Source: Maribellus sp. YY47 (GTDB lineage Bacteria > Bacteroidota > Bacteroidia > Bacteroidales > Prolixibacteraceae). Taken from it: a stretch of 64,000 nt of DNA. The notes under the pieces are model-generated. The model had not been told where the DNA came from and searched no databases. It saw only the letters and a list, made by a program, of their open reading frames with translations. The position numbers and the translations under genes were made by a program. The stretch's first letter is position 1. Every line of letters begins with the position of its first letter. The stretch spans positions 124,001 to 188,000 of the forward strand of contig NZ_JALGYW010000006.1 of NCBI RefSeq assembly GCF_023111095.1, in the 5' to 3' direction. Of the stretch, positions 51,826-54,499 are shown one piece after another.

Positions 51826-52854
51826 ATGGCAGATAAAATTTTAGTGACCGGCGGAACCGGTTATATTGGTTCGCACACGGTGGTTGAACTGCAGGCATCG
51901 GGCTACGAGGTGGTAGTGGTGGATAACCTTTCCAATTCAAGCATCGATGTACTGGATAACATTGAAAAAATCTCGGGTATCCGGCCTGATTTCGAACAGT
52001 TCGACCTGGCGGATGGAGCAAAAACCGACGACTTTTTTAACCGCAACAAAAATATTGCAGCCATTATTCATTTTGCGGCATCGAAAGCCGTGGGCGAATC
52101 GGTGGAAAAACCTTTGCTGTATTACCGCAACAACCTGGTTTCGCTGATGAACCTGCTCGATTGCCAGATAAAATACGATGTGCCAAACATTGTTTTCTCT
52201 TCATCGTGTACGGTTTACGGTCAGCCCGATGTGCTTCCGGTGACTGAAAAAACGCCGCGAAAAGATGCCGAATCTCCTTACGGAAATACCAAACGTGTTA
52301 ACGAAGATATTCTGAACGATACCATTCATGCCAATCCGCAGTTGAAAGGTATTGCGCTTCGGTATTTTAACCCGATAGGTGCACATCCGAGCGCGTTGAT
52401 TGGTGAACTGCCCCTGGGTGTTCCGCAAAACCTGGTGCCTTTTATTACGCAAACGGCTGCCGGGTTACGCGACGAATTGAAAGTTTTTGGCGACGACTAT
52501 GATACCGTTGACGGATCGGCTGTTCGCGATTACATTAATGTGGTTGACCTGGCCAAAGCGCACGTGGTGGCAATTAACCGCTTGCTGCAAGGGAAAAACA
52601 AAGCCAATTACGAGATTTTTAACCTGGGAACAGGCACCGGACTTTCGGTGTTGGAAGTAGTTACCGGTTTTGAAAAAGCAACCGGCGTAAAACTCAACTA
52701 TAAAATCGTAGGCCGCCGTGCAGGCGACATCGAAAAAATATGGGCCGATACCACTTATGCCAACGAAGAGCTGGGGTGGAAAGCCGAAAAAGGAACCGAA
52801 GAAACATTGCTTTCGGCCTGGAACTGGGAGAAACGCGTTCGCGGAATTAAATAA
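51826..52854 (+). CDS. galE: UDP-glucose 4-epimerase
   Basis: The 342-residue short-chain dehydrogenase-type epimerase interconverts UDP-glucose and UDP-galactose. It has the Rossmann motif VTGGTGYIGSHTV, the catalytic Ser in SSSCTVYG and the YxxxK in SPYGNTKRV. The long form of the C-terminal domain and RDYINVVDLAKAH are typical of GalE. It is monocistronic, ending in a terminator. Confidence 0.95.
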   Translation: MADKILVTGGTGYIGSHTVVELQASGYEVVVVDNLSNSSIDVLDNIEKISGIRPDFEQFDLADGAKTDDFFNRNKNIAAIIHFAASKAVGESVEKPLLYYRNNLVSLMNLLDCQIKYDVPNIVFSSSCTVYGQPDVLPVTEKTPRKDAESPYGNTKRVNEDILNDTIHANPQLKGIALRYFNPIGAHPSALIGELPLGVPQNLVPFITQTAAGLRDELKVFGDDYDTVDGSAVRDYINVVDLAKAHVVAINRLLQGKNKANYEIFNLGTGTGLSVLEVVTGFEKATGVKLNYKIVGRRAGDIEKIWADTTYANEELGWKAEKGTEETLLSAWNWEKRVRGIK

Positions 52855-52877: not shown

Positions 52878-52928
52878 AAGAGGAAGGTGCGTGCTGTTTC
52901 AGCATTCTCCTTCCTCTTTGTGTTTTTA
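52878..52928 (+). terminator. Terminator of galE
   Basis: AAGAGGAAGG (52878-52887) pairs with CCTTCCTCTT (52909-52918), with an inner GCTG/CAGC hairpin; TGTGTTTTT follows. Confidence 0.75.
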
Positions 52929-53053
52929 TACCTTTAGTTGGATTGACGCGAAATGACGTTGGTTTGGTAAATAGACGAGCAGAAAAGTGTTTGTGTGATT
53001 CAGTAAGTTATCCGAAATAAAACGATTGTCAGCTGTTTTCCGGTCAATTCTCC

Positions 53054-53061
53054 TATTTTTG
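53054..53061 (+). promoter_or_regulatory. -7 box of the original rfbB promoter
   Basis: TATTTTTG fits TAnnTTTG and lies 18 bases before the first copy of the rfbB start codon (53080). In the present arrangement it drives the GIY-YIG gene first, and full-length rfbB only by read-through. Confidence 0.5.
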
Positions 53062-53079
53062 TTTTAAAATCAGACACAG

Positions 53080-53120
53080 ATGAAAAAAACAATATTGGTT
53101 ACAGGTGGTGCAGGATTTAT
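53080..53120 (+). repeat. 41-bp direct repeat, left copy
   Basis: Identical at all 41 positions to 53444-53484. The two copies are separated by 323 bases that hold the GIY-YIG gene. The bases just outside the copies differ, so the repeat is sharply delimited. Confidence 0.95.
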
Positions 53121-53127
53121 CCTGTGA
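53080..53127 (+). pseudogene. rfbB: Orphan 5' end of rfbB (first copy of the 41-bp duplication)
   Basis: The first 41 bases (53080-53120) are identical to the start of intact rfbB (53444-53484) and encode MKKTILVTGGAGFI. Immediately after the duplicated segment the frame changes to Leu and TGA (53125-53127), so only 15 codons remain. This is the old 5' end, left attached to the original promoter after the GIY-YIG segment entered. Confidence 0.85.
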
Positions 53128-53404
53128 AATAATGGCAAATTTAAAGGATACATATTATTGGGTTTACGTACTTCAAAGTAAAAAAGACGGTAAAAAGTAT
53201 ACCGGGTATACTCAAAATTTGCCATTAAGATTTGAGGCTCATCAAAAAGGTAAAGTTCCGTCCACCAAGCATAGGCGACCTTTTGAGTTGATTTATTTTG
53301 AAGGATGTTTAAACAAAGAGGATGCTCTGAAACGTGAAAAATACTTGAAATCATATTATGGAAAAATGTATTTGGGCAACCGCCTCAAATCTTATTTCAC
53401 TGGA
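53120..53404. mobile_element. GIY-YIG element bounded by 13-bp inverted repeats, inserted in rfbB
   Basis: TCCTGTGAAATAA at 53120-53132 and the complement of TCCAGTGAAATAA at 53392-53404 are inverted repeats matching at 12 of 13 bases. They enclose nearly the entire GIY-YIG gene: the left repeat includes the first base of its start codon and the right one codes for its SYFTG end. The segment plus a 39-base tail (53405-53443) separates the two perfect 41-bp copies of the rfbB 5' end. This looks like an insertion that duplicated its target and so preserved a working rfbB. The mechanism is inference. Confidence 0.6.
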
Positions 53405-53419
53405 CAAGTGGTCGAATAG
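53132..53419 (+). CDS. Small GIY-YIG (URI-type) endonuclease-like protein
   Basis: The 95-residue product is a single GIY-YIG domain: YWVYVLQSKKDGKKYTGYT (the GIY and YIG strands, here YVY and YTG), the catalytic Arg in NLPLRFEAHQKG, and the acidic residue in DALKREKYLKS. The domain cuts DNA with a single metal ion. Proteins of this size are common in Bacteroidota as stand-alone genes of unknown function. The ATG at 53132 overlaps the left inverted repeat; a further upstream ATG at 53105 lies within the duplicated rfbB sequence and is probably not used. Its location between two copies of the rfbB start suggests that it is, or was, mobile. Confidence 0.88.
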   Translation: MANLKDTYYWVYVLQSKKDGKKYTGYTQNLPLRFEAHQKGKVPSTKHRRPFELIYFEGCLNKEDALKREKYLKSYYGKMYLGNRLKSYFTGQVVE

Positions 53420-53443
53420 AAATACTCTAATAAAATGAAAAGC

Positions 53444-53484
53444 ATGAAAAAAACAATATTGGTTACAGGTGGTGCAGGATTTAT
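53444..53484 (+). repeat. 41-bp direct repeat, right copy (start of intact rfbB)
   Basis: The second copy is the in-place beginning of rfbB, running on into ATTGGCTCGCACG. Confidence 0.95.
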
Positions 53485-54499
53485 TGGCTCGCACGTGGTT
53501 CGTTTACTGGTAAACAAGTACCCCGAATATAAGATTGTCAACCTCGATAAACTAACGTATGCCGGGAATTTGGCTAACCTGAAAGACATAGAAAACCAGC
53601 CCAATTACGAATTTGTAAAGGGCGATATTGTGGATGCTGATTTTATACAGAAGTTGTTTGAAGAAAAGCAGTTCGATGGTGTGATTCACCTGGCTGCCGA
53701 ATCACATGTAGATCGCTCGATTTCAAACCCCACCGAGTTTGTGTATACCAATGTAATCGGTACGGTTAACCTGCTGAATGCGGCGAAATTTATCTGGAAG
53801 GATAATTTGGAAGCAAAGCTTTTCTATCATATTTCTACCGACGAAGTTTACGGATCGCTGGGCGACGAAGGTATGTTTACCGAAGAAACGCGTTACGATC
53901 CGCACAGTCCGTACTCGGCTTCAAAAGCCAGTTCCGATCATTTTGTGCGGGCTTACTGCGATACCTTTGGGCTACCGACCGTGATTTCAAACTGCTCGAA
54001 CAACTATGGTTCGTACCAGTTTCCCGAAAAACTGATTCCGCTTTTTATTCACAACATTAAAAACAACAAACCGCTGCCGGTTTATGGTAAAGGCGAAAAC
54101 ATTCGCGACTGGCTGTGGGTGGTGGACCATGCACGGGCTATTGATGTGATTTTCCACCAGGGAGTAATTGGCGAAACCTATAATATTGGTGGTTTTAACG
54201 AATGGACCAACATCGACCTGATCCGCGTGATGTGCCGGAAGATGGATGAAAAACTGGGGCGTCCGGCGGGTGAATCAGAAAAGCTGATTACGTTTGTGAA
54301 AGACCGTGCCGGGCACGATCTGCGCTATGCGATCGATGCCACAAAAATTAAAAACGAACTGGGCTGGGAACCTTCGCTTCAGTTTGAAGAAGGCATTGAA
54401 CTGACCATTGAATGGTACCTCGAAAACACCGAATGGCTGGAGAATGTGACCTCGGGCGACTATCAGAAATACTACGAAGAACAATACGCGAAACGATAG
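53444..54499 (+). CDS. rfbB: dTDP-glucose 4,6-dehydratase
   Basis: The 351-residue enzyme makes dTDP-4-keto-6-deoxyglucose for rhamnose and related surface sugars. It has the Rossmann motif VTGGAGFIGSHVV, the catalytic STDEVYGSLGD and the Tyr-x-x-x-Lys in SPYSASKASSD, plus FPEKLIPLFIHN and RDWLWVVDHARA. The ancestral start is taken as 53444, since the duplicated copy shows that the gene began with MKKTILVTG; an ATG at 53435 supplied by the inserted sequence would add MKS. The upstream GIY-YIG insertion separates it from its old promoter. Confidence 0.95.
   Translation: MKKTILVTGGAGFIGSHVVRLLVNKYPEYKIVNLDKLTYAGNLANLKDIENQPNYEFVKGDIVDADFIQKLFEEKQFDGVIHLAAESHVDRSISNPTEFVYTNVIGTVNLLNAAKFIWKDNLEAKLFYHISTDEVYGSLGDEGMFTEETRYDPHSPYSASKASSDHFVRAYCDTFGLPTVISNCSNNYGSYQFPEKLIPLFIHNIKNNKPLPVYGKGENIRDWLWVVDHARAIDVIFHQGVIGETYNIGGFNEWTNIDLIRVMCRKMDEKLGRPAGESEKLITFVKDRAGHDLRYAIDATKIKNELGWEPSLQFEEGIELTIEWYLENTEWLENVTSGDYQKYYEEQYAKR

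Follow-up and report, generated by a model that had tools for sequence, protein, structure and literature searches.

Excerpts of PMC3630166 describe mORF cassettes of fungal mitochondria, in which an endonuclease gene is accompanied by a duplicated C-terminal part of the gene concerned, as in Allomyces atp6 and in Glomus atp6, atp9, cox2 and nad3. According to the same excerpts, the endonuclease of the Glomus atp9 mORF is of the GIY-YIG type, and the atp6 ends are 63.5% identical in DNA and 91% identical in protein (PMC3630166). Phage T4 carries the free-standing, site-specific GIY-YIG genes SegA to SegG, with SegB lying between tRNA genes (PMC2988022, excerpt). IStrons and group I introns are insertions that are rendered harmless to the host gene (PMC4227781, excerpt), and an excerpt of the 2006 paper on the superfamily states that prokaryotic Slx1 homologues had been predicted to act in DNA repair (PMC1564403).

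The locus studied here lies in a window of 64,000 nucleotides from Maribellus sp. YY47, in which a GIY-YIG gene sits at the start of rfbB. As in the mORFs described in the excerpts of PMC3630166, an endonuclease gene is inserted in a gene and the native end is displaced. Two pairs of related loci further resemble the mORFs in a gene end that is carried with the nuclease and fused to the host gene, and over the related loci the differences between the copies lean towards synonymous ones, much as the mORF ends are more alike in protein than in DNA. However, the mORFs of these excerpts involve a 3' end in mitochondria, whereas the window element involves a 5' end in a bacterial chromosome, and it further differs in its small nuclease (95 aa), its covarying inverted ends and its target, a motif common to many paralogous genes. 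With the T4 Seg genes it shares a stand-alone GIY-YIG gene, and SegB parallels the tRNA-linked lineages considered below (PMC2988022). The T4 enzymes, in contrast, lie between genes, and the excerpted review describes no portable gene end for them; the stem "duplicat" is missing from its text (PMC2988022). Unlike the IStrons and group I introns of the excerpted source, the inserted unit is almost entirely nuclease ORF and is harmless by virtue of a second gene head, with rfbB whole without splicing. Among the matches listed from titles and abstract beginnings of the open-licence literature, no paper described, for bacterial chromosomes, a GIY-YIG cassette accompanied by a copied gene end. Judged from its sequence, the window element appears to be a variant of the homing cassette, and cleavage is predicted.

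The rfbB locus and its empty counterparts

The window genome (5.04 Mb in 55 contigs) shares its genus with Draconibacterium orientale. A preliminary description of the window had reported that the first 41 bases of rfbB occur twice, with a 95-codon GIY-YIG gene between the copies, and both points were confirmed: 53080-53120 and 53444-53484 are an exact direct repeat, and the gene between them matches PF01541 (Table 1). In 300 Markov-shuffled copies of 52901-53700 the longest exact repeat averaged 9.9 and never exceeded 15; the actual sequence has one of 41, and the repeat thus exceeds chance. The left copy stops after 15 codons and the right copy is full length, also as described. The 13-bp inverted repeats of that description are real but slightly longer than it claimed, with 16-nt arms that are 88% complementary. 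These ends enclose the nuclease part alone in the window; the new leader and the restored head lie outside them. The upstream ORF is taken to be galE, as in the preliminary description.

Table 1. Coordinates of features at the rfbB locus, numbered from the first letter of the window
Feature	Position	Strand	Evidence
Putative galE, upstream neighbour	51826..52854	+	ORF; homologous gene at most 400 bp from rfbB in 19/29 relatives
Native rfbB leader, with -7 box-like TATTTTTG	53035..53079	+	44/45 identical to the uninterrupted-gene leader in L007 and in L008
Displaced native rfbB head (stub; 15 codons, then stop)	53080..53120	+	41/41 identical to 53444-53484; 40/41 in L007 and 39/41 in L008 empty sites
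Left inverted end (TTATCCTGTGAAATAA)	53117..53132	+	Similar end in homologues, CC(T/C)GTNAAAT
GIY-YIG nuclease gene, 95 aa	53132..53419	+	PF01541, 63.3 bits, E 2.6e-17
Right inverted end, overlapping the nuclease 3' coding end	53392..53407	+	Covaries with left end across homologues
New leader before the restored head	53408..53443	+	Missing from the empty sites of L007 and L008
Restored (second) rfbB head	53444..53484	+	Exact repeat; equals the right edge of the insertion relative to relatives
Intact rfbB (dTDP-glucose 4,6-dehydratase)	53444..54499	+	TIGR01181, 476 bits, cut-off 365

PF01541, a known homing family, was the sole domain found in the protein of the inserted unit, and no transposase was found there. 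The window nuclease has the columns that are invariant in an alignment of five subfamily members; these include Y12, Y23, G25, R33, E69 and N83, which we take to be catalytic. The closest solved sequences, PDB 1zg2 (E 4.8e-7) and 1ywl (E 0.0095), are of the UPF0213 or small single-domain GIY-YIG kind and are named merely as hypothetical proteins. The window nuclease lineage presumably belongs to the prokaryotic Slx1-homologue group.

The uninterrupted site was found in the two closest relatives, L007 and L008, which belong to the same genus and whose rfbB bodies are 89-98% identical to that of the window per full 100-bp segment. In both, the sequence equivalent to 53035-53120 continues straight into 53485 onward. 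Therefore, 53121-53484 is an insertion, and occupied and empty alleles of one site both exist. Because the native leader is the left one, the native head must be the left copy, which has been displaced, and the leader on the right is new. These empty sites bear out the earlier view of an inserted unit, made of one nuclease gene with inverted ends, that enters the 5' end of a gene, and rfbB is left whole, in keeping with the claim that the insertion is nearly harmless. Expression of rfbB is presumably by read-through across the cassette.

Among 36 same-genus relatives searched, 29 rfbB loci were obtained (one per genome); none of them matched the GIY-YIG segment, and galE lay at most 400 bp from rfbB in 19 of them. 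D. orientale (G006) bears related elements at its second rfbB (L036). The spacer between galE and rfbB also varies: about 105 bp of it (52930-53034) in the window correspond to only about 12 bp in L007 and L008. This difference is likely a deletion in L007 and L008, because L009 and L025 retain part of 52930-53034.

Recurrence at the glycine motif and the inverted ends

An alignment of five subfamily proteins, run against 84,980 species genomes, found 234 relatives, of which the best 80 were retained. Direct repeats across the nuclease gene reached a score of at least 18 in 27 of these 80, as against 5 of 480 mismatched flank pairs. Twenty of the best 80, together with the window and D. orientale L036, make up 22 epimerase loci in Bacteroidota and Balneolota; L185 is a repeat of L036 and was counted alongside it when motif sites and inverted ends were tabulated. 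At all 22, the element occupies the glycine motif (TGGAGFIG) of an NAD-dependent epimerase/dehydratase gene, at its TTY codon. A truncated head lies on the upstream side and, downstream, an intact head in an open frame that holds the whole motif (the downstream ORF of L161 is cut by the contig end). Fourteen of the 20 belong to the 27 repeat-scoring loci, and the other six have more diverged heads. Among the downstream genes scanned, nine matched epimerase/dehydratase models and one matched cysC; of the nine, only those of L168, L174 and L184 passed a model cut-off, that of dTDP-glucose dehydratase.

The point of entry is directly after ...GGxTTYA. The junction is imperfectly uniform, with a palindrome between stub and element in L156 and L162, one extra T in L169, and a stub that lacks two motif codons in L177. 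The palindrome of L156 and L162, ACCC(C/T)GTGTAATGGAGCTCAATTACA...GGGTGAA, stands between the stub and the left inverted end and has similar ends. In L036, L177 and L191 the stub is immediately preceded by what is left of an earlier element, showing that the restored site can be re-invaded. Two further members lie in the head of cysC, L037 and L038, the stub of the latter measuring just about 20 bp, and a broken copy of the element adjoins cysC in G036. The nuclease gene of L038 holds a REP-like palindrome at about 1844-1900 (CCCTGTGGAATAA...TTATTCCACAGGG), the ends of which resemble the element's own; this REP-like insertion is also found beside cysC in G036 (L041).

Inverted ends were expected by the preliminary description in other GIY-YIG genes, and both ends were recognised in 56 of 86 loci, the remaining 30 having no recognisable pair. 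At subfamily loci they follow TTYAC-CC(T/C)GTNAAAT ... ATTTN'AC(A/G)GGG. The variable positions N and N' can pair in 53 of these 56 loci, where 21.5 would be expected if they were independent; this set holds L036/L185 and L049/L234, and each of the two pairs is possibly one element (the proteins of L049 and L234 are identical, and the two may come from one genome). The right arm lies within coding sequence and the left arm mostly ahead of the start, suggesting that selection likely acts on the end pair as DNA or RNA.

Related elements that share these covarying ends, and have no head copy, split other genes, namely RAYT, IVP, AlbA and ORF6N genes. The two pieces of the split IVP gene cover positions 1-45 and 49-105 of the profile in L229, 4-65 and 67-105 in L209, and 1-45 and 48-106 in L203. 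L234 splits a gene for an SLFN_AlbA_2/RecG-C-like protein, and L195 splits an ORF6N protein gene of which the left piece alone was matched. The RAYT pieces of L206, L208 and L219 matched NCBIfam REP_Tyr_transpos (NF047646) below the cut-off, with one piece each, and gave no Pfam match when scanned. No match was obtained for the pieces of L199, the sole locus flanked on either side by long frames on the minus strand. Nuclease and left fragment share one reading direction in 20 of 20 labelled split-gene loci, a count that covers recognisable fragments only. In these members the inverted ends bound the whole unit and no copy adjoins the junctions, the listed repeats being farther off or belonging to another element. 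Because members with the same ends exist without a head copy, head copying is not inherent to the inverted ends.

Origin of the second head and rival explanations

The 41-bp copies of the window are identical, which is compatible with a local copy, and the origin of the second head was analysed over all epimerase loci. Differences between stub and head numbered 83 nonsynonymous and 92 synonymous over 21 loci, an observed N:S ratio of 0.90 as against a neutral 3.31 (L169 was skipped, L177 was not entered, and L157 and L166 supplied only 3 and 1 codons). The differences lean synonymous, and the freely decaying stub of a fresh duplicate would not be expected to yield that ratio. Within a single Galbibacter genome, L168 (in rfbB) and L169 (in a different epimerase gene) are 93% identical from nuclease through leader to head and 23% identical in their bodies; the stub of L169 reads MKILITGVAG, and its head is of the long L168 type. 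One nuclease-to-head unit thus stands on two unrelated bodies, and there the head came with the nuclease. L162 and L173 follow the same pattern with more divergence (84% from nuclease to head, 28% in the bodies). Both pairs have a carried gene end with the native end displaced.

We rejected the stronger proposal that the head tracks the nuclease everywhere. Over all 22 epimerase loci, the partial value for head similarity against nuclease similarity was 0.06, with 572 of 2,000 permutations as high, and that against body similarity was 0.23, with 25 of 2,000 as high; import is claimed here only for the pairs in which it is seen. In 10 of the 18 loci that could be tested, the head closest to the stub was its own. 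A local copy, gene conversion between stub and head, or homing among similar genes of closely related genomes would each account for this. The restored head of the window itself may be of foreign origin or a local copy.

We consider it probable that 53121-53484 is a mobile homing cassette, in which the stand-alone gene of a GIY-YIG nuclease and its inverted ends are combined with a short leader and a portable 5' end of the target gene. The nuclease lineage would recognise the DNA that encodes the glycine motif of NAD-dependent epimerase/dehydratase genes and would cut an empty gene at that site. Repair of the break would then draw on a donor copy as the source of nuclease, leader and head. The cassette would enter directly after the TTYA of the motif and displace the native head upstream, where it would remain behind the native promoter as a nonfunctional stub; the gene would survive because the cassette head continues in frame into the native body. 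A circular form that integrates at the same short homology would be an alternative route to the same product. Selection may account for the insertions observed, as those in epimerase genes are seen with a head and those in RAYT or IVP genes would need none.

The exact copies of the window, the presence of inverted ends, the stubs nearest to their own heads and the overall tendency of heads to follow bodies and not nucleases could also be read as the product of a transposon-like insertion, in which fill-in of staggered cuts makes a 41-bp target duplication and the head is always the recipient's own. We regard this as unlikely. In the near-identical cases the length of the duplication is not fixed (41 bp in the window, 66 in L162, 78 in L156), and it begins at the start codon or within about 15 bp of it whatever that length, which would be odd for a duplication set by the distance between cuts. 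The synonymous lean and the single Galbibacter head on two bodies also speak against it, as do the gene-splitting members that have the same ends and lack a copy adjoining their junctions. For these reasons, the proposal of the preliminary description that the element rebuilds the gene by duplicating its target does not stand as a general rule.

It is still less probable that a RAYT (Y1) transposase acts in trans to move a REP/IS200-like element whose passenger is the GIY-YIG gene, although the resemblance of the element ends to the REP-like palindrome inside the L038 nuclease gene, the similar palindromes beside the left end in L156 and L162, the gene-splitting insertions without a long duplication, the several members in RAYT genes and a putative RAYT gene upstream of the L036 elements would all fit such a mode of movement. 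It leaves unexplained why the target gene is linked to the nuclease lineage, why the epimerase motif is fixed, and why gene ends are copied in tRNA-linked lineages. A REP-like palindrome family in the window genome was considered as a source of the ends and rejected, as the exact pattern had no match in that genome. That a one-off local tandem duplication arose beside an unrelated nuclease gene, or that the assembly is in error, has the repeat itself in its favour and nothing more, and is hardly credible: the same anatomy recurs at 21 further loci, one of them in a chromosome labelled as complete (L036, the same as L185), and null rates in the mismatched-flank controls are low. The recurrence thus refutes it. 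The homing cassette remains our preferred reading.

Target choice and the wider GIY-YIG genes

A tree with few strong forks, built from 81 nucleases over 92 columns, included 20 of the 22 epimerase loci, L165 and L174 being too short; L185 was omitted. With the 39 unassigned rows treated as one label, target labels changed 14 times on this tree, as against a mean of 38 in shuffled labels (0 of 200 as low), and the labelled rows alone required 7 changes. Epimerase insertions accounted for 4 changes (shuffled 18.1), RAYT insertions for 1 (support 77) and IVP insertions for 4 (shuffled 7.8), and cysC showed no clustering on the tree (2 of 2 changes). The labels of L195, L203, L206, L208, L209, L219, L221, L229 and L234 come from scanned fragments; the remaining labels are recognisable fragments read by eye, which may favour the plus strand, and the target of L231 is presumably a DUF1016 gene. 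The clustering suggests that target choice is largely inherited with the nuclease, as with homing enzymes, and near copies add to it.

The window genome holds four small GIY-YIG genes and one further GIY-YIG domain in a 610-aa frame, presumably UvrC. Besides the gene at rfbB, one of the small genes (L003) follows tRNA-Asp, with the tRNA end and terminator copied (42/47); another (L004) follows tRNA-Val without a scored copy. A third (L001, 1270-2540) is placed within an array of about 212-bp repeats of REP-like units, and similar cases occur in a sample of the phylum. GIY-YIG matches were found in 36 of 37 genomes of the genus, some in tandem rows of up to six copies, spaced about 446 bp apart (G009:C4:3732274-3734708). 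A row of eight, about 364 bp apart, was seen at G113:C34:6991-9748.

In the genus survey, which drew on 60 chosen regions besides 30 automatic loci (not all listed places were used), 132 GIY-YIG frames were collected in 100 loci, and 114 were scored after 18 had been dropped for short flanks or as duplicates. Flanking direct repeats with a score of at least 20 were found around 72 of the 114; the corresponding counts were 23 of 684 for mismatched pairs and 3 of 61 for control ORFs. Neither of the outcomes that the preliminary description had named as fatal, an arrangement shared by all relatives or other GIY-YIG genes without ends or duplications, was observed. A tRNA was called within 300 bp of 43 of the 72 repeat-flanked genes and of 7 of the 42 others; all 50 lie on the strand of the nuclease, and 5 of these calls have no clear identity ("???" or "Stop"). 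The phylum sample, which consists of best matches and is not a random draw, gave scores of at least 20 in 20 of 28 (0 of 280 for comparison), and each of the 6 nearby tRNAs was co-oriented. Many of the flanking repeats in both surveys are dispersed REP-like repeats and not gene ends; because arrays and REP-like repeats inflate the counts, we rejected flanking repeats as proof by themselves.

Other GIY-YIG lineages adjoin tRNA genes and have part of the tRNA copied. By eye, the displaced tRNA fragments often bear a short palindrome (such as TCCCGA..TCGGGA, CCTGCCTGCCGGCAGGCAGG or CCGTCAGCTGACGG) in a stem or loop, as in L061, L084, L087, L097, L124, L003, L050, L074, L082, L076 and L080, the intact copy having been compared in some of them. 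The stop codon of the nuclease is a TAG within the 5' end of the restored tRNA in L061, L084 and L087 (tRNA-Arg) and in L064 (tRNA-Pro), so that nuclease and tRNA overlap. Carriage by phages or plasmids was considered and rejected: the subfamily is nearly absent from the phage, viral-contig and plasmid collections, which contained no close relatives, the matches being one viral contig at 46% identity and two plasmids and three phages below 60%, with query coverage short of 80% in all five of the latter.

The preliminary description had suggested that such an element may explain many of the stand-alone GIY-YIG genes of Bacteroidota, and the wide distribution of related arrangements agrees with this. 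We tentatively propose that these genes may represent a large, unrecognised class of nuclease-only mobile cassettes in bacterial chromosomes. Such cassettes would avoid harm by means of a portable gene end, either the 5' head of an epimerase or cysC gene or a 5' or 3' part of a tRNA; lineages without such an end would be confined to dispensable genes, and cassettes that move between paralogues would rewrite the N-termini of valued enzymes. The strict target point suggests small site-specific nucleases that would be worth testing, and the proposal would assign a role, open to testing, to a family of small nucleases that is very common but otherwise named by its domain alone. It would be a bacterial mirror image of the fungal mitochondrial strategy, in which a selfish nuclease carries a piece of the gene that it breaks. 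Epimerase N-termini and copies of tRNA parts would then be swappable by selfish DNA, which matters for annotation, for start-site calls and for gene trees.
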